Positions 28,694 to 39,612 of a DNA stretch of 64,000 nt are shown piece by piece. The stretch's first letter is position 1, and each line of letters opens with the position of its first letter. Source of the stretch: Mycobacterium sp. (lineage in GTDB: Bacteria > Actinomycetota > Actinomycetes > Mycobacteriales > Mycobacteriaceae); NCBI GenBank assembly GCA_018882965.1, contig VEQY01000009.1, positions 18,866-82,865 on the forward strand, written 5' to 3'. The notes beneath the pieces were generated by a model, which was not told where the DNA came from, searched no databases, and worked only from the letters and a program-made list of their open reading frames with translations. A program made the translations under genes and the position numbers.

Positions 28694-30835
28694 ATGGTCG
28701 GCGTGCACCGCGCGCCCGAGGTCCGTCGCCCGCTGGGGCAGCGGTTCGGCGATCTGGTCTCCGCTCCGCTGTCCTGGGTGCTCGCGCTGGTCGTCGCGAT
28801 GGCCGGCGGTGCCCTGCTGGGACTGATTCCGGCGACCGGGGCCGCCGAGCGCTCGCCGGTGGTGGTTCCGCCGACCGCGGAGTCCAGCCGGGCCACCGAA
28901 TTGCTCCAGCAGTTCCCCGGCGGCAACCAGGCGCCGGTGATCCTGCTTGTCACCCGGACCGACGGCGGGGTGCTCTCGCCGGACGACCTCGCCGCCGCTG
29001 AGCAGGCCCGCGCCCGGATGACCGCCCGCAGCACCGCGTCCGCGGGCGCACCGCCGATACCGCCGGTGCCCTCGGCAGACGGAAAGGCGGCGCTGGCGCC
29101 GGTGCCGCTGGACCCGACCCTCACCGGATTCGCGCTGTCCGACGAGGTGAAGGAACTGCGGGCGGCCGCGCGCGAGGGTCTGCCCGGCGAACTCACCGTC
29201 AACGTGACCGGCGGTCCGGCGTTCGGCGCCGACATCGCCAACTCCTTCTCGGGCGCCAACTTCGTCCTGCTCGGCGTCACGGTGGGGGTGGTGGCACTGC
29301 TGCTCATCGTCACCTACCGCTCGCCGGTGCTGTGGCTGGTGCCGCTGCTGGTGATCTCGCTCGCCGACCGTGTGGCGGCCGTGCTGGGATCGGCCATCGC
29401 CGAAGCGGTCGGGCTGGGCGGCGACGGCTCGACCTCCGGCACGACCAGCGTGCTGGTGTTCGGCGCGGGCACCAACTACGCCCTGCTGCTGATCTCGCGT
29501 TACCGGGAGGAGTTGCGGCGCACCGTCAATCACCGGGCGGCCCTGAGCACCGCGGTGCGCTTCGCGGCTCCGGCGATCGTCGCCAGCAATGCGACGGTGG
29601 TGCTGGCCCTGCTGACCCTGCTGCTGGCCTCCTCGCCAAGCACCCGCAGCCTCGGTGTTGAGGCCGCCTCCGGTCTGCTGGTCGCCGGCGTGTTCGTGTT
29701 GCTGGTGCTACCGCCGTCGCTGGCGCTGTTCGGCCGGAAGTTGTTCTGGCCCTTCGTTCCACAACCCGGCTCCGACCAACCCGCCGAATCCGGAGCCTGG
29801 TACCGGATCGCCGACTGGGTGTCGGGCCATGCCGGTCGGGTGACGGTCGCTTCGATCATGGTGCTGGGCGTGCTGGCCACCGGACTGGCGGGCACACCGG
29901 TCGGCCTGTCGCTGGTCGACCAGTTCCGGGTCAGCGCGGACTCCATCGACGGCTTCAGGACCCTGGCCGCCCACTTCCCCAGCGGTGTGACCGATCCGAC
30001 CCGGGTGGTTGCCCCCGTCGACGCCGCCGACGCGGTGACCGCGGCAATCGAGCGCACGCCCGGCGTCGCCTCAGCGGCTCCGGCTGGGACATCGGACACC
30101 GGCCTCACCCAGTGGCAGGTCGTCATCAACGCTGAACCGGCTTCCCCACAGTCCTTCGAGGTCGTTACGGCACTTCGGAATTCGGTCCACCAGGCGGATC
30201 CCGACGCGCTCGTCGGCGGCACCGACGCCCAGGCCCTGGACGCCCGCAACACCGCTGTCCGGGACCGCCAGGTGGTGATGCCGGCCGTTCTGATCGTGGT
30301 CCTCGCGGTCCTCTACGCGTTGCTGCGGGCTGTTCTGGCACCCCCGGTTCTGGCGGCTGCGACGGTGCTGTCCACCCTGGCGGCACTGGGGATGGGCGGC
30401 TGGGTCAGCGTGCACCTGCTCGGCTTCCCGGCGCTGGACAACTCGGTGCCGCTGTTCGCGTTCCTCTTCCTGGTCGCGCTGGGCATCGACTACACCATCT
30501 TCCTGGTGACCCGGGCCGGCGAGGAGACACCGCTCTATGGCACCCGTGGCGGGATCGTCCGGGCGGTCTCGGCCACCGGCGGGGTGATCACCAGTGCGGG
30601 AATCGTCCTGGCGGCCGTGTTCTGCGTGCTAGGGGTGCTGCCGCTGATCTTTTTGACCCAGATGGGGATTATCGTCGGACTGGGCATCCTGCTCGACACC
30701 TTCGTCGTGCGCACCGTCGTGATTCCGGCGCTGTTCACCCTCATCGGCCCGCGGATCTGGTGGCCGGCGTTCCGGCGCGAGGACATCGAGCGGACCGACC
30801 GGCTAGCCGTTCAGGAGACGTTCGCTGTTCAGTAG
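28694..30835 (+). CDS. MMPL-family RND transporter
   Basis: Two repeated multi-TM blocks with GAGTNYALLLISRYREEL and ALGIDYTIFLVTRAGEE motifs. Confidence 0.9.
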   Translation: MVGVHRAPEVRRPLGQRFGDLVSAPLSWVLALVVAMAGGALLGLIPATGAAERSPVVVPPTAESSRATELLQQFPGGNQAPVILLVTRTDGGVLSPDDLAAAEQARARMTARSTASAGAPPIPPVPSADGKAALAPVPLDPTLTGFALSDEVKELRAAAREGLPGELTVNVTGGPAFGADIANSFSGANFVLLGVTVGVVALLLIVTYRSPVLWLVPLLVISLADRVAAVLGSAIAEAVGLGGDGSTSGTTSVLVFGAGTNYALLLISRYREELRRTVNHRAALSTAVRFAAPAIVASNATVVLALLTLLLASSPSTRSLGVEAASGLLVAGVFVLLVLPPSLALFGRKLFWPFVPQPGSDQPAESGAWYRIADWVSGHAGRVTVASIMVLGVLATGLAGTPVGLSLVDQFRVSADSIDGFRTLAAHFPSGVTDPTRVVAPVDAADAVTAAIERTPGVASAAPAGTSDTGLTQWQVVINAEPASPQSFEVVTALRNSVHQADPDALVGGTDAQALDARNTAVRDRQVVMPAVLIVVLAVLYALLRAVLAPPVLAAATVLSTLAALGMGGWVSVHLLGFPALDNSVPLFAFLFLVALGIDYTIFLVTRAGEETPLYGTRGGIVRAVSATGGVITSAGIVLAAVFCVLGVLPLIFLTQMGIIVGLGILLDTFVVRTVVIPALFTLIGPRIWWPAFRREDIERTDRLAVQETFAVQ

Positions 30836-31560
30836 ATGTAAGAGAAACTGATCGCCCGTCGCGGGACTGAACTGGTGTTGACCCTGGAACCGTGGACCAC
30901 GCGGCCGTCGAAGAACACGGCCGCGCCAGGGTCCAATTCCACCGGAATCGGCTGGAGTTCCGGAAAGAGCCTCGACACCTCCAGCCGAATCTGTTCACCG
31001 TCCGCAGCGTCGGCGCTTCCGACGTGGGGCAGGTCGCCCGACCGGTGCGATCCCGGGTAGAACTCCAGGCAACCGTTCTCGACACGGGCTGGATCGAGAG
31101 CGATCCAACAGGTCAAAGCCCCGTTGTACGAGGTGCGCTGAACCGGCGGGATGTAGGCCAGATCCTGATGCCAGGGCTGTGCCGACCCGACTGCCGCGGG
31201 CTTGCCCCAAAAGTTGACCGAGAGCAACCTGGGCCGGTGCCCTGCAACCAGCGCACTGACGACATGCCGGTAGAAATCGCTCTTATCGCCGAGATCCGCG
31301 AAGAAAGGGTCTCTTTCCTCGAGATGAAACATCGCCCGGAGCACTCCGCGGTAGCTCTTCACCCTGCCGGTTTGGCCCAGGAATCCACCTCCAGGGCACT
31401 CCAGGTTGACGTTCGGCACGCTGTATTCCAGATCGAGTGCAGATTCGGTGACCGTCGAGAGATGGGCGTTCACCCGCTCGATCATTGACGCCGGTATGAC
31501 GGCGGCAAGAGCGACGAAACCTTTTTCGCGGAAGCACTCCCGGTCCTGGTCGGTGATCAA
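30829..31560 (-). CDS. PhyH (phytanoyl-CoA dioxygenase)-family Fe(II)/2-oxoglutarate oxygenase
   Basis: PWHQDLAYIPP (HxD) and DGRVVHGSRVNTS (distal His); 243 aa. Confidence 0.85.
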   Translation of the reverse strand: MITDQDRECFREKGFVALAAVIPASMIERVNAHLSTVTESALDLEYSVPNVNLECPGGGFLGQTGRVKSYRGVLRAMFHLEERDPFFADLGDKSDFYRHVVSALVAGHRPRLLSVNFWGKPAAVGSAQPWHQDLAYIPPVQRTSYNGALTCWIALDPARVENGCLEFYPGSHRSGDLPHVGSADAADGEQIRLEVSRLFPELQPIPVELDPGAAVFFDGRVVHGSRVNTSSVPRRAISFSYIY

Positions 31561-31562
31561 GG

Positions 31563-32798
31563 TCAGGCGTCCAGGATCGATTCGTAGAGACGTTGTTCCA
31601 TGATCCGGAAGCGCGCGTAGTCCTCTGTCAGCCGCATTGGGTCGGCGTGAACCAGATATGCGTATCCGGGTCGGGTGTTCGTATCACTCGTCTTAGGCAG
31701 GTAGTCGCCCCTTCTCACCGTCAGCAGTACCTCCCGCACCGACTCCAGCGAATACATTTCCGACAGATCCGCGGGTCTCGCGACCGTACCTCCACGATCC
31801 GAGTGGAAGTACACCAGCCGGGCATTCCGTGTCACCCGATCAGACTGCAGTGCCTGCAGCGCACGGTGGGGGCAGACGTAGGCATCAACCGTCAGTTGAA
31901 CAGGGTCCAGGCCTATCGCGAGCTCGAAGGCCCTCGGCGACATCGCGCCCGCAAGTCGTGCGCCGATCTCTATCAGCGCCGGACCCTTCGGCGTTCGGCG
32001 CACCTCGACATGAGCGGGACCGGTTTCCACACCCAGACATGCCAGTACCTTGCAGACGTAGTCGGCCAGGGGCACGTAGTCCTCATCGCGGGGATTCAGC
32101 AGTTCGGCATACAGATCGGTCGAAATCGGCTCCTCCCGCTCGTCTACCCCAACCCAGATATCGGTGATGAAGTGTCTTCCGTCGACACTCATGGTGTTCA
32201 CCATGTATTCCGCACCGGGCAGATACTCCTGCACGACCAATTTGTCATTGACGATCCCAAAGAGATTTGTGGTGCCGATGGTCTGCTCGAATGCTCGGGC
32301 GAGGTCGATTTCGTCATCGCAGAAGACGACGCCCTCCGATCGGGCCGCGAACTCCGGCTTGGAGACCACCTTCTGAAACGGCTGGCGGCGATACCAGAGA
32401 AGAATCTCCTCGAGCGAATCGGATCTGATTTGGCGGGCGGCCAACAGCCCCTCCGAACGAAGCGCCTCGTGCATCACAAACTTACTGCGCCTGCACATCA
32501 CCTCGATCGCGGAATTGCGACCGACCCCAAGTCGAGCCGACAGATCATCGGCGGTAACCACGCCTGAGTCACAGCCGGGAAGTATCGCCGCCAGCGCATA
32601 CCTGCCCAGGAACTCCACCGTTTGTTCCAAACCGGATTCCTGATAGTCGATACAGTGCTCGAAATCCGAGCTCCGCAGGCTCCGGGACAGGCTTCTGTCG
32701 ACACCTTTCGAGGTTTGGATGTGCAGAACCCCGAAGCCTAGTTCCTTGAATAACGGCGCCAGCAACGCTCCACTTGAGAATGCGTCAACGATGGCCAC
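31563..32798 (-). CDS. ATP-grasp ligase (L-amino-acid ligase-like)
   Basis: EYLPGAEYMVNTMSVDGRHFITDIW and GPAHVEVRRTPKGPALIEIGARLAGA metal/ATP-binding segments typical of BacD/DdaF-type ATP-grasp ligases. Confidence 0.85.
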   Translation of the reverse strand: MAIVDAFSSGALLAPLFKELGFGVLHIQTSKGVDRSLSRSLRSSDFEHCIDYQESGLEQTVEFLGRYALAAILPGCDSGVVTADDLSARLGVGRNSAIEVMCRRSKFVMHEALRSEGLLAARQIRSDSLEEILLWYRRQPFQKVVSKPEFAARSEGVVFCDDEIDLARAFEQTIGTTNLFGIVNDKLVVQEYLPGAEYMVNTMSVDGRHFITDIWVGVDEREEPISTDLYAELLNPRDEDYVPLADYVCKVLACLGVETGPAHVEVRRTPKGPALIEIGARLAGAMSPRAFELAIGLDPVQLTVDAYVCPHRALQALQSDRVTRNARLVYFHSDRGGTVARPADLSEMYSLESVREVLLTVRRGDYLPKTSDTNTRPGYAYLVHADPMRLTEDYARFRIMEQRLYESILDA

Positions 32799-32805
32799 GT
32801 ATCGG

Positions 32806-33882
32806 TCAGCAGAGATTTCGCATCACCTCCAGAAACGTCTGCCTGGTGTTGCGCCAGGGTCCCGGTAGTGCGGACTCGCCGGTATCAAGAAGTTCCTGCA
32901 GTTGCGGGAACAGCGGTTCCGCGATCAATCGGCTGGCTTCGGCGGGCACCAGTGTCGTCAGATGGTCGATCGAGATGACGTCGACGGAGCCAGCGGGGCC
33001 CACCGGGATCACCGGCTGGTCGATTGTCGTCACCTGCGAGTAGAGCGGGAACCGATGCGCCGGCGAACCGACATCGCAGGTCACATCAGCGAGGATGGAC
33101 AACCTCGATTCGGCGGACAGGTCCCTCTCCTGCAGGAAAGGCGAACCCGCCGTGTCTGACTGAATGCAGTTCACCAGCACGTCGAACTGCGGCAGCGTCG
33201 CCAGGATGTCGGGATCGGCGGTTTCGGCTCGACCCCACCGCGTGGGTACGATCCCGACTTCCCGGCACAGCTCCGACGCACCCGAGCCGGCATTTCCTCG
33301 ATGACCGATGATCACCACCGAGGGTCTGAAATCGGCTTCGCTTGCCGACTCCACAACACGCGCCACCAGGGATTGGCGATCAGGGAAGTAAGGGTGGGGG
33401 ATCTCCAGGGCTCGGTGCAGTGCTTTATCGAAGACGAACTGCACGGCCAAGGCCGCACCCACGAACCCCGACAGCCATCCGATCCGGCCGACTGTCAGCG
33501 CGAACCCGTTGTCATCTGTGAGATATTCGCAGTCCAGCAATGTTCCACCACCATCGCGGAACCGGCGAAGAAGGCTGCGGCTGTGGTCCTGGCCCTTGTA
33601 GCAGTGTGCGTAGTAAATGTGGCTGTGGCGTAGTGGGAAATTGCCGGACGGAAGTTCCTTCAGACCGAGTATGAAGAACTCCGCCGGCGCATCGACCCAT
33701 GTCCCGGGCGGCTCAAGCCGACAACCGGCCGCTGCGAATTCGGCGTCCGGCGCAATGCGCGTGCCGGAGCTTTCGACGACCACCGTATGACCGGACCGAA
33801 CGAGCACTGCTGCCTGCTCCGGTAGCAGTGGGGTCCTTCTCTCATGGGGCTTTGTCTCCTCGCGTAACCACAGATGGCCCAT
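32806..33882 (-). CDS. Saccharopine dehydrogenase, fungal LYS1-like (AlaDH/PNT superfamily)
   Basis: LWLREETKPHERRTPLLP, FFILGLKELP, YYAHCYKGQ, VIIGHRGNAGSGA, DVISIDHLTTLVPAEAS align by eye with yeast Lys1. Confidence 0.85.
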   Translation of the reverse strand: MGHLWLREETKPHERRTPLLPEQAAVLVRSGHTVVVESSGTRIAPDAEFAAAGCRLEPPGTWVDAPAEFFILGLKELPSGNFPLRHSHIYYAHCYKGQDHSRSLLRRFRDGGGTLLDCEYLTDDNGFALTVGRIGWLSGFVGAALAVQFVFDKALHRALEIPHPYFPDRQSLVARVVESASEADFRPSVVIIGHRGNAGSGASELCREVGIVPTRWGRAETADPDILATLPQFDVLVNCIQSDTAGSPFLQERDLSAESRLSILADVTCDVGSPAHRFPLYSQVTTIDQPVIPVGPAGSVDVISIDHLTTLVPAEASRLIAEPLFPQLQELLDTGESALPGPWRNTRQTFLEVMRNLC

Positions 33883-33892
33883 GATCCGACCT

Positions 33893-35095
33893 TCACGCGA
33901 CAGCCGTAAAGGCGTCAGATAGGTAGCGATAATCAGCGTGAGATGCGAGCAGTGTGTCGTGGCGTCCTACCAGACTTCGCGCGACACGTCGACCAGCCGC
34001 TGATGGCACCATCTCACAGAAGATCGACCGCTCCGCGAGGTACTCGCGGACAGAGGTCCCGTCGGGCTGGAACAACCAAAAGTATGCCGAGCCGTCACGA
34101 CTTTCCAGCTGGTATTCCAGTCCGACCTGAGAGGTGACCTGGGCTTGAAGCATGTTGTAGCCGAACATCCGGTCGTAGACCATCGCCACAAGGCCTCCAG
34201 AGGCACGGGCGGCTGCTTCGATGAAGAAAAGTTGGTCATCCCGTCGGATGACCTCGATATGAATCAGGCTCTCGTGGACTCGCAGAGCACGCGCCACAGC
34301 TACCGCATAATCGCGGAGGGAATGGGATTGGGGGTCGTCAGCGAGTAACGGCATGCTACCCACAGGTTTACCCCGGCCAAAGTCCAGCGGGGCTAGGTTG
34401 TATCGCGAACAGCCGAACCACGTCGGACGATCGTCGATCACCATGGAGTCGAGATGCAGCATCTCCCCGACGATCTCCTCCTCAGCCATGTAAGCGGTAT
34501 TGAGGCGATGTCGACCGCAATCCACGAACTGTTCGAGGGATGAGATACGGGCGACTCCCAGCGAACCGCCTAAGGCGATGGGTTTGACAAGGAAGGGCCG
34601 TCCCAATTCGGATTCGCACTGCGCGAACAGGGCATGGGTATCCCGGGACCAATCCAACTCCAGCGCCTTCGGAACAGTGAGTCGACAATCGCTCACCATC
34701 TGCTTCATCGCCATTTTGTCTCGGAACCGGCGCGTATCGAGGGCGCTCATCCCGACGAGGTGGAATCGATCACGGAGTCGGGCGGTGACCTCGAGGTCGC
34801 CCTCGAAAAAGCTCAGCAGGCGCAGCTGGTCGCAACCCTTTGATTCACGGGCGACCGCTTCCATCGCTCCGGCATCGAACTCCTCGGCGAAACAATGATT
34901 CCGGTAATGGACCCTGACGTAGTAGACCCGGTCGAAGAATCCCTCGTAGGACCCGAAGGCTTCCCGGAGCCGCACATCGACAAGCGCTGTCAATCGCAGC
35001 TCCGTTGCTTCCCGCAGGGAGGACAGATCCAGTAAGCGGAGCGGGTTGAGGGTGTAGGTGAAGACGAGCATCAGGGCCCGTCGCGCTGAAGCCAC
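33893..35095 (-). CDS. Second ATP-grasp ligase
   Basis: FLVKPIALGGSLGVARI (ATP-binding), HIEVIRRDDQLFFIEAAARASGG; GTG start with GGAAGG Shine-Dalgarno. Confidence 0.82.
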   Translation of the reverse strand: MASARRALMLVFTYTLNPLRLLDLSSLREATELRLTALVDVRLREAFGSYEGFFDRVYYVRVHYRNHCFAEEFDAGAMEAVARESKGCDQLRLLSFFEGDLEVTARLRDRFHLVGMSALDTRRFRDKMAMKQMVSDCRLTVPKALELDWSRDTHALFAQCESELGRPFLVKPIALGGSLGVARISSLEQFVDCGRHRLNTAYMAEEEIVGEMLHLDSMVIDDRPTWFGCSRYNLAPLDFGRGKPVGSMPLLADDPQSHSLRDYAVAVARALRVHESLIHIEVIRRDDQLFFIEAAARASGGLVAMVYDRMFGYNMLQAQVTSQVGLEYQLESRDGSAYFWLFQPDGTSVREYLAERSIFCEMVPSAAGRRVARSLVGRHDTLLASHADYRYLSDAFTAVA

Positions 35096-35166
35096 TACTA
35101 GACCTTCCGAAGGGGTCGATCCGCGTAGATCTCAGGATACGGCTAGGTGGACTACTCGCAGGAAAA

Positions 35167-36633
35167 TCAGTGAACGCCGCTCATCAGTCTGGTGAGGCGA
35201 GGGGCAAGAAAGATCGCGACCGCACCAACGGCGATTGCGACACCCCCGAGGGTTCCGAAGTAGGCAAGCTCTCGGTCGGGATCGTAGTAGCGGGCCAGGA
35301 AGCCGGACATCGCCGTACCCAAACCAATGGACAGGAAGTACAGCGCCATCATCTGCGCCCGGAAAGCCTCCGGTGCCAACTGTGTGGTCACTGCCAGACC
35401 GGTCGGTGCGATGAGCAATTCAGACACCGCGAAGACGGCCAGTATCGCCACGAGCAGGACAGCCGGCACGGACTGACCTGATGTTCCCGCGGCCGTCAGG
35501 AAGAGAAGGAAGGCGATCCCGATACCGATGACGCCGAGGGCGAATTTCACCGGCGTGGTGGGCGCGCGGCGTCCCAGTCTGGTCCACATCACCGCAAAAA
35601 GCGGCGACAGCAGGATCACCCACACCGGTTCGATCGAGCCGATCCACTCAGGTGGTGCCACCCAGCCGAAGATAGATCGGTTGACTCGCTCGTCGGCATA
35701 GATAGCGAGGACGGTCGAGATCTGCTGGAAGAGAGCGCAAAAGACCGTGTTGGCGAGGAACAGTGGGATGAAAGCCCGGACCCGGTTCCTTTCGGCCGAA
35801 TCAACTCTCGGGCTTCTGAGCATCACCACGAAGTAAACGGCCGCAGCGATCAGAGTGAGCCCGGTGACCGACTGGGACAGGTTGCCCAGCGTCAGCAACC
35901 GCGACTCGAAAGCCGCCACTACTAGGCTTACAACCAGAACTGCGATGCCGGTCATCCTCCAGATTCCCCCGCGGGACAGGGGGTTTGGAACGTTTCGTCC
36001 GTGAGCGCCCAGGTTGCGGCGGAACATGGCGTATTGGACGAGGCCGATCGACATGGCAAGGGCGGCCGCACCGAACCCGTAGCGGAATCCGAGCCTGGTC
36101 TGAAGCAGTCCGGTGACCAGTGGGCCGATGAAGGCACCGAGGTTGACCCCGAGGTAGAAGAGTGTGAAACCGCCGTCACGTCGTGGGTCACCCTGTCGGT
36201 AGAGCGTGCCGAGCAGCGAGGCCGCGTTGGATTTCAAGGCGCCTGAACCTACGGCGATGCACACCAGACCGACCGCGACACCGGCAAGTCCCGGCAGTAT
36301 CGCCAGGGCGACGTGGCCCACCATCACGGCCACGCCACCGTAGAAGACGGTGCGCTCCATCCCCAGCAGCCGGTCGGAGACCCAGCTTCCGAGCACCGTG
36401 CACAGGTACACCAGGCCGCCGTAGGCTCCGACGATCCCTGTCGCTGTGCTCTTCGGGAGCCCGAGCCCACCCACGCTGACTGAGTGGTAGAGGTAGTAGC
36501 CCAGGATCGTGAGCATCCCGTAGAAGGCGAACCTTTCCCACAGCTCGATTCCGAAAAGATTGGCCAGACCGATCGGCTGACCGACAATCGTGCGGTCGCT
36601 GTCCGCGTCAGTTCGCTGCGCGTCGCCGGCCAT
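35167..36633 (-). CDS. POT/PTR2 family (proton-dependent oligopeptide) MFS transporter
   Basis: ERFAFYGMLTILGYYLYHS and GGLVYLCTVLGSWVSDRLLGMERTVFYGG (PTR2 signature). ORF opens at 36678; start at MAGDAQ (36633) preferred. Confidence 0.87.
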   Translation of the reverse strand: MAGDAQRTDADSDRTIVGQPIGLANLFGIELWERFAFYGMLTILGYYLYHSVSVGGLGLPKSTATGIVGAYGGLVYLCTVLGSWVSDRLLGMERTVFYGGVAVMVGHVALAILPGLAGVAVGLVCIAVGSGALKSNAASLLGTLYRQGDPRRDGGFTLFYLGVNLGAFIGPLVTGLLQTRLGFRYGFGAAALAMSIGLVQYAMFRRNLGAHGRNVPNPLSRGGIWRMTGIAVLVVSLVVAAFESRLLTLGNLSQSVTGLTLIAAAVYFVVMLRSPRVDSAERNRVRAFIPLFLANTVFCALFQQISTVLAIYADERVNRSIFGWVAPPEWIGSIEPVWVILLSPLFAVMWTRLGRRAPTTPVKFALGVIGIGIAFLLFLTAAGTSGQSVPAVLLVAILAVFAVSELLIAPTGLAVTTQLAPEAFRAQMMALYFLSIGLGTAMSGFLARYYDPDRELAYFGTLGGVAIAVGAVAIFLAPRLTRLMSGVH

Positions 36634-36649
36634 GTGCGCCACCCTGCCA

Positions 36650-36723
36650 GATTCCTCCGCTGAACTCGGAATCCACATCGTCCCTCCGGGATAATCTCAA
36701 TGGCAGCTTCGAAGGGAGTTGCC
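36650..36723. promoter_or_regulatory. Putative divergent control region between POT and TauD genes
   Basis: Perfect 6-bp inverted repeat GATTCC-N12-GGAATC (36650-36673), TAATCT -10-like hexamer (36692-36697), Shine-Dalgarno GAAGGGAG (36711-36718) before ATG 36724. Confidence 0.4.
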
Positions 36724-37641
36724 ATGGCCCAGCCCGCCGGACTTTCAGCCGACCTCTCGGGGTCATCGATTTCGGTCACCAAGCTCGGTAGCCGGATCGG
36801 GGCCCGCGTCGACGGGGTCTTGCTCGATGGGAACCTCAGCCCCGAAGTGGTGGATGCGATTCGTTCCGCGATGCTCTCTCACAAGGTGGTTTTTTTCCGG
36901 GGCCAGCACCATCTCGATGAGGATCGGTTGCTGGCATTCGGTCACTTGCTGGGCACACCGATTCGGCACCCCGCGGCGGCACCGGACGCGCCGCTGGTCA
37001 CACCGATCAGCCCGCACGACGGCACTGTCCCCTGGTGGCACACCGACGCGTCGTTTCTGGTCAACTACCCGGCCGTGACCCTCCTGCGGGCTGTCTCCGT
37101 GCCCGACTATGGCGGGTCCACCCTCTGGGCTTCCGCCTCTGCTGCCTACGCCGATCTGCCGGCACCGCTGAAGAGTCTCGTGGAAAACCTCTGGGCACAG
37201 CACACCTGGTCATCAGGCGGCACCTACTGCAAAGAGTGCTGGTCTGTGACGGATGATCACGCGGGATCCCGAAGCAAGTTCGAGAAAATGGATTTCCGAA
37301 CCGAGCATCCAGTCGTACAAGTGCATCCGGAGACCGGTGAACGCCACCTACTCGGCGGTGACTTCGTCCGCAACCTCGTCGGCCTGGACAATCACGACTC
37401 AAATGTTCTCCTGACGCTCCTGCAGCGCCACATCACCATGCCGGAGAACACAATCCGGTGGACCTGGGAACCCGGTGATGTCGCCATCTACGACAATCGC
37501 GCCACTCAGCATCGAGCGGTCAATGACTACGACGGCAGTGATCGGCTGCTGCACCGGATCATGTTGATGGGTGAGGTGCCGGTCAACATCCACGGACAGC
37601 CCAGCCGGGTGGTCAGCGGTGCACCCCTGAGCGCGCCCTGA
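36724..37641 (+). CDS. TauD/TfdA-family Fe(II)/2-oxoglutarate dioxygenase
   Basis: [10 protein letters not shown] (HxD), [15 protein letters not shown] (distal His), LLHRIML (2OG Arg). Confidence 0.9.
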
Positions 37642-37654
37642 CGCGACGCCCGTT

Positions 37655-39612
<1,958 letters not shown>

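Follow-up and report, generated by a model that had tools for sequence, protein, structure and literature searches.

A horizontally acquired mycobacterial island carries ATP-grasp ligases and a LYS1-like enzyme in a candidate pseudo-peptide pathway

Introduction

Mangotoxin, the phosphonoalamides and the dapdiamides (DdaF) are products of free-standing ATP-grasp ligases that act with few tailoring genes and no non-ribosomal peptide synthetase (NRPS). Synthesis of a tripeptide by two ligases is described for mangotoxin (MboC/MboD; PMC13185094) and for the phosphonoalamides (PnaC/PnaB; PMC11867202). Another described arrangement is that of azaserine-type clusters (azsH/azsI/azsJ; Streptomyces lavendulae pSA3239), in which Lys1-like and ATP-grasp genes occur together with an MFS gene. 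In the azaserine cluster, the saccharopine genes azsH and azsI are not crucial, and the ATP-grasp gene is thought to be dispensable. Here we describe a block of six genes in a 64,000-nucleotide stretch of Mycobacterium sp. DNA (contig VEQY01000009.1; hereafter the window) that encodes two ATP-grasp ligases, a LYS1-like dehydrogenase, PhyH- and TauD-family oxygenases and a POT transporter. The block is a horizontally acquired island, and we assign a probability of roughly 0.5 to the reading that it directs NRPS-independent biosynthesis of a pseudo-peptide that is hydroxylated and whose secondary amine is formed reductively.

The island resembles the mangotoxin, phosphonoalamide and dapdiamide systems in its free-standing ligases, and the first two of these also in having two such ligases. 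Unlike all three, it includes a LYS1-like dehydrogenase, which goes unmentioned in the available portions of those reports, and it holds no HDO, amidinotransferase-like or phosphonate gene. The closest published neighbour is the azaserine azsH/azsI/azsJ group, but its gene set is different. Azaserine-type clusters carry Lys9, lysine N-monooxygenase, cupin/tRNA-ligase and NRPS genes, and Lys1 there keeps an arginine (R131) that is replaced in the island. Lys9-like genes are annotated beside LYS1 in the S. lavendulae cluster (L063) and appear to be present in two further loci (L056 and L068). The island has no Lys9 partner and no lysine-pathway or hydrazine genes; the lysine N-monooxygenase and cupin/tRNA-ligase genes of an azaserine/triacsin-type hydrazine cluster, present in L063, are absent from it. 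Two-ligase peptide pathways are already known. The literature searched, to which subscription literature contributed little, describes neither a cluster that matches the island nor one in which a ligase is combined with a reductive-amination enzyme of LYS1 type. On saccharopine dehydrogenase in clusters with ATP-grasp genes it yielded only the azaserine paper and one on tRNA-synthetase-like proteins, and on saccharopine in natural products of amino acid ligases it yielded none. The expectation of the first-pass annotation of this DNA that the locus is not an already characterised cluster was borne out to that extent.

Six genes were acquired in place of one resident gene

All six open reading frames (ORFs) of the block were found intact at 30829-37641. 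As the first-pass annotation had claimed, five lie on the minus strand (PhyH, ligase, LYS1-like, AG2 and POT, with gaps of 2, 7, 10 and 71 bp), the TauD gene runs divergently, and the family names hold. The features, with functions as predicted from sequence, are as follows.

30810..37646, no strand: acquired island of ~6.8 kb, between the MMPL and 4HBT thioesterase/purA genes, in place of a resident membrane gene
30829..31560, minus strand: PhyH-type Fe(II)/2-oxoglutarate oxygenase, 243 aa, TTG start (PF05721, 107.6 bits)
31563..32798, minus strand: L-amino-acid ligase of the DdaF/PRK07206 group (ATP-grasp), 411 aa, GTG start (NF005543, 329.8 bits; cut-off 302)
32806..33882, minus strand: LYS1-like (saccharopine dehydrogenase-like) NAD(P)H enzyme, 358 aa (3ugk, E = 5e-57; AlaDh_PNT_N, 70.8 bits)
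33893..35095, minus strand: second, divergent ATP-grasp ligase (AG2), 400 aa, GTG start (closest structure L-amino acid ligase 4wd3, E = 8e-11)
35167..36678, minus strand: POT (peptide:H+ symporter-type) transporter, 503 aa, good ribosome-binding site (TIGR00924, 455 bits; cut-off 130)
36724..37641, plus strand: Rv3406-like TauD-family oxygenase (type II alkyl-sulfatase group), possible passenger (TauD Pfam, 178.8 bits; E = 4e-120 to Rv3406 structures)

Nucleotide homology to related genomes ends at 30768-30809 and restarts at 37647-37659, and therefore the insert comprises exactly the six genes. One junction falls in the final codons of the MMPL gene, which the PhyH gene overlaps tail to tail by 7 bp, and the other just beyond the thioesterase gene. 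In the three nearest relatives (L164-L166), a single membrane gene of ~225 aa stands between MMPL and thioesterase/purA, and five further relatives (L167-L171) carry this resident gene at the site plus extra genes, such as a P450-like ORF. The resident gene is not at the site in the window, nor was it detected elsewhere in the host genome. With a different gene at this position in eight relatives, the earlier claim that the block lies outside the core synteny is confirmed.

Base composition also sets the island apart. The GC content at third codon positions (GC3) of all six genes (0.69-0.77) is below that of every flanking gene (minimum 0.79, n = 44; Mann-Whitney p = 9e-5), where the comparison comprised flanking genes of at least 150 aa and excluded a few spurious ORFs flagged by hand. 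Overall GC is 59-64% across most of the island, unlike its surroundings. The six genes are one horizontally acquired foreign unit that was swapped for one membrane-protein gene.

The LYS1-like enzyme has lost a saccharopine-binding arginine

The match of the LYS1-like protein to yeast saccharopine dehydrogenase (3ugk), with the E value given above, extends across almost the entire protein; the best alanine dehydrogenase reaches only 3e-6. An identity as alanine dehydrogenase was rejected (TIGR00518, 17.4 bits against a cut-off of 391.85). In human AASS, Arg146 and Arg39 hold saccharopine carboxylates and Gln116 holds the third, while Lys93 and His111 are catalytic (PMC13174811). Arg146 corresponds to yeast R131 by PDB alignment, and Arg39 to yeast R18. 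The island protein is like yeast LYS1 and the LOR domain of AASS in its homology over most of yeast Lys1 and in its catalytic residues: the pair K75 and H93 (yeast K77 and H96) is kept, together with R16 (yeast R18), K96, Q98, E119 and D306. Unlike these enzymes, it has A128 at the carboxylate-binding position of yeast R131 and AASS Arg146, with two extra residues nearby, it has no Lys9 partner, and its gene lies inside a ligase operon.

Among 26 LYS1 sequences compared, R131 is present in 24 (yeast, Photobacterium and 22 of 22 actinobacterial sequences, including the azaserine-type one). It is otherwise missing only from the copy of Paraburkholderia sabiae, which has Glu there, and both copies that have lost it are linked to a ligase. 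Because a saccharopine-binding arginine is lost, the enzyme is not to be read as a plain saccharopine dehydrogenase, and we infer that its substrate binding is altered. Its earlier naming as a LYS1-like saccharopine dehydrogenase therefore holds for homology and catalytic residues but not for this arginine. A possible NAD-to-NADP switch (WD to WGR) was set aside as a weak hint, since WG also occurs in ordinary LYS1.

Two ligases and a hydroxylase-type PhyH protein share the operon

Beyond the group-level match listed above, the first ligase matches ATP-grasp_4 (51.3 bits) and, slightly below the cut-off of 29.4, LAL_C2 (29.0 bits). Its ATP-grasp E..E..R and Lys positions line up with those of L-amino acid ligase 30vh (E = 1e-50). 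Against the model of the dapdiamide synthase DdaF (NF041595), it scores 176 bits, below the cut-off of 840. As judged by these profile scores, it is a ligase of the DdaF kind but not DdaF. AG2 is more weakly matched by Pfam (ATP-grasp_4, 26.9 bits; Dala_Dala_lig_C, 24.8 bits), and its best other relatives among the sequences searched are 28-34% identical over part of the length. Both AG2 and PhyH stand in the same strand-uniform run as the first ligase, with gaps of 2-10 bp.

The solved structure closest to the PhyH protein is EvdO2 (E = 1e-16). An HxD motif (WHQD) and the distal His are present, and in the PhyH family the HxD motif is of the hydroxylase type. The site is thus predicted to be hydroxylase-type rather than halogenase-type. 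The gene list of the window includes no ORF of megasynthase size that could represent an NRPS or polyketide synthase (PKS) core; this statement rests on ORF size within the window, not on a cluster finder or a genome-wide scan for core genes.

The ligase pairings recur although the full set does not

The first-pass annotation had named beforehand a lack of co-conservation of the six genes as grounds for abandoning its cluster, and no other sampled genome has the full set, with proteobacterial chromosomes outside the search. Of 347 genomes of the genus, the host genome alone carries the LYS1-like gene. A profile search of 396 other genomes of the phylum found relatives of the ligase in 4, with no LYS1 gene next to any of them. 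Across 394 other genomes of the class, a profile found ordinary LYS1 in 14, and in the neighbourhoods read none of these genes adjoins such a ligase. A contig scan of 85,000 genomes returned one relative, without LYS1; this near-empty result is weak because two strict peptide patterns were used.

The symbiosis plasmid pPs24235_1 of P. sabiae, in another phylum, carries a LYS1-like gene (37% identity) adjacent to a ligase gene (39% identity) in the order seen in the island, followed by an exporter gene. The two ligases form a clade (support 96/92), the arginine is lost in both LYS1-like proteins, and the GC3 of the P. sabiae pair is low for its host, as it is for the island. The P. sabiae pair has no PhyH, second ligase, POT or TauD gene alongside, and its transporter belongs to the MFS_3 family. 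For the PhyH gene, a search of 287 genomes yielded distant relatives only. At three Streptomyces loci a PhyH gene lies close to a related ligase gene, and the PhyH proteins beside a ligase in Streptomyces are 35-37% identical to that of the island.

The six-gene set is therefore not co-conserved, yet the LYS1/ligase pair and the PhyH/ligase association recur. That a LYS1-like gene and a ligase gene are found side by side in a second phylum, with gene order preserved and an exporter gene close by, supports the view that the two act together in biosynthesis. The earlier proposal of a non-NRPS biosynthetic cluster is upheld in part, by the contiguous acquired block, the two ligases, the intact-looking enzymes and this recurrence, and is weakened by the lack of conservation of the whole set.

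A possible pathway and the evidence against it

The core of the proposed pathway would be the operon AG2/LYS1-like/L-amino-acid ligase/PhyH. In the order that we infer, one ligase would activate a carboxylate with ATP and join two amino acids. The LYS1-like enzyme, acting in the reductive direction, would then condense an amine (a lysine-type side chain or the ligase-made dipeptide) with a 2-oxo acid to give an opine-like secondary amine. The second ligase would attach a third unit, PhyH might hydroxylate the scaffold, and POT might move the product or a precursor. By analogy with the two-ligase pathways MboC/MboD and PnaC/PnaB, the ligases here may build a di- or tripeptide.

More tentatively, the LYS1-fold enzyme could have been recruited as a dedicated opine-type secondary-amine synthase that acts on ligase-made peptides, or on a substrate that lacks one of the carboxylates of saccharopine. 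A route of ATP-grasp ligation plus reductive N-alkylation, with no core from an NRPS, a PKS or a ribosomally synthesized and post-translationally modified peptide, might then have spread between a mycobacterium and rhizobial Paraburkholderia. If so, an opine-type secondary-amine step would be added to a compact kind of pathway, whose loci look rare in the genus. The change from Arg to Ala would offer a precise handle on any shift in substrate preference, for which the pair in P. sabiae would serve as an independent second system.

Several observations weigh against the proposed pathway. The complete set is known from one genome only, and both POT and TauD have ordinary mycobacterial relatives. 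AASS Arg146 additionally contacts the diphosphate of NADPH (PMC13174811), which weakens loss of the arginine as a substrate marker, and so this loss alone does not define a new substrate. In the LYS1 tree, the window and P. sabiae copies pair weakly (72/46), with no supported clade, and a candidate signature of residues uniquely common to the two was rejected because it showed no excess over other long-branch pairs. The common loss of the arginine may thus be shared by descent or convergent. Structures predicted from single sequences were too low in confidence to be of use (predicted local distance difference test scores, pLDDT, of 34 and 32).

POT and TauD may not belong to the pathway

A real possibility, which overlaps with the pathway proposed above, is that only part of the block forms one pathway and that POT, TauD and perhaps PhyH are unrelated genes that were co-carried or arrived separately. 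POT (PF00854/PTR2, 198.5 bits; cut-off 27) has mycobacterial peptide permeases as its nearest relatives (65-73% identity), and 71 bp separate its gene from AG2. The first-pass annotation had taken it for the product transporter; the family assignment stands, but transport may run in either direction, because the nearest relatives are ordinary peptide permeases.

The TauD gene probably starts at 36724, preceded by a GGGAG ribosome-binding site, rather than at the listed 36700, which leaves ~45 bp between POT and TauD. The protein aligns nearly full length with M. tuberculosis Rv3406, which is a type II alkyl sulfatase and can scavenge sulfate (PMC3675115). It scores 196.4 bits against the taurine dioxygenase model NF007104, below the cut-off of 313, and its gene is single copy in the host genome. 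Its resemblance to the Rv3406 group leaves the tailoring role once assigned to TauD unsupported; it may be a passenger, and the pathway would probably not need it. Both POT and TauD have ordinary relatives at other mycobacterial sites, and the P. sabiae plasmid has the LYS1-like and ligase genes alone, plus a transporter from another family.

On the other side, low GC3 is common to all six genes between one pair of junctions, and POT lies upstream of the ligase operon on the same strand. Furthermore, both proteins fall outside their genus clades: POT is 68-71% identical to Mycobacterium POTs that are 76-88% identical among themselves, and TauD, which unlike the Rv3406 orthologues resides in the island, is 61-64% identical to Mycobacterium orthologues that are 73-97% identical to one another. 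Such placement is expected from one foreign actinobacterial donor, perhaps a related one, which would explain it; separate arrivals are the alternative.

Other explanations for the island

It is also conceivable, but unlikely, that the ligases make a conventional peptide with no secondary amine and that the part of the LYS1-like enzyme, as has been suggested for AzsH/AzsI, is limited to the supply or recycling of lysine or saccharopine. Such a role would fit the retention of K75, H93, K96, Q98, E119 and D306, and the co-occurrence of Lys1-like and ATP-grasp genes in azaserine-type clusters (L063), where the former are not crucial. However, the island lacks both a Lys9 partner and the hydrazine genes that would consume lysine, the azs-type LYS1 has R131 whereas the island copy does not, and the LYS1-like gene is directly coupled to a ligase gene in two phyla.

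Still harder to sustain is a role in nutrient scavenging, in which POT would import peptides, TauD would free sulfate from esters, and the remaining enzymes would process the imports. The nearest relatives of POT, oligopeptide:H+ symporters of mycobacteria, and the sulfate-scavenging capacity of Rv3406 are in keeping with this role. Two ATP-consuming ligases are nevertheless ill-suited to peptide breakdown, the island has no peptidase or aminotransferase, and the LYS1-like/ligase pair is accompanied by an exporter elsewhere (P. sabiae).

An assembly or binning artefact that placed DNA of another organism here, as the 113-contig draft and the island composition unlike that of the host might suggest, is highly improbable given that both flanks lie on the same contig and are syntenic with relatives, that the resident gene was not detected in the genome, and that the junctions fall at the borders of the MMPL and thioesterase genes.

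Surroundings of the island and related loci

The host groups with genomes of one genus, which we take to be Mycobacterium from the order of the genes surrounding the island (mmpL, purA, fgd, pta-ackA, clpB and dnaK). The displaced resident gene, represented by L165 2914-3582 (minus strand, about 222 aa), encodes a membrane protein with no Pfam match and is present in 8 of 8 relatives read at this site. No integrase or transposase was seen in the island; a mobile element was rejected, since the window lacks tRNA genes and the island ends are not marked by paired repeats. Anti-phage defence was likewise rejected (no PADLOC match for 6 of 6 proteins). So was phage origin: five of the proteins have no PHROG match, and phage records contain no LYS1. 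No known RNA elements were found, and promoter and terminator signals were not above those of shuffled sequence.

Related ligases occur in other settings. Symbiosis plasmids of P. phymatum (L046 7833-11083) and P. phenoliruptrix (L048 7836-11085) carry a haem-oxygenase-like gene and two ATP-grasp ligase genes between nif and nod; this gene set resembles the mangotoxin kind, and the second ligase is 34-35% identical to AG2. The nod-linked gene beside these ligases seemed at first sight to encode a PhyH homologue but is actually haem-oxygenase-like. In nifA-mutant bacteroids, expression of two of the three genes of P. phymatum is raised (PMC8305402). In P. sabiae (L049 6756-7799), the first ligase gene of the nod-linked operon is broken into short frames, and the LYS1-like/ligase pair is intact elsewhere on the plasmid.

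Another genome of the same genus (G029, one contig) has two ligase loci of its own (L077 8650-11351 and L078 8513-10102), and their products share about 31-33% identity with the ligase of the window. At one locus the ligase gene directly precedes a second ATP-grasp gene; there is no LYS1 nearby. A conserved Streptomyces cluster (L064 35-13461, L065 and L070) comprises PhyH, ligase, MFS, asparagine-synthetase-like, FGE/EgtB-like, metallo-hydrolase and PLP-aldolase genes. A plasmid of Streptomyces sp. NBC_01717 (L195 3105-8152) encodes an iron-containing redox enzyme, two ATP-grasp ligases, an MFS transporter and a methyltransferase, and the first of these ligases is the nearest relative of the clade formed by the window and P. 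sabiae ligases (91/85).

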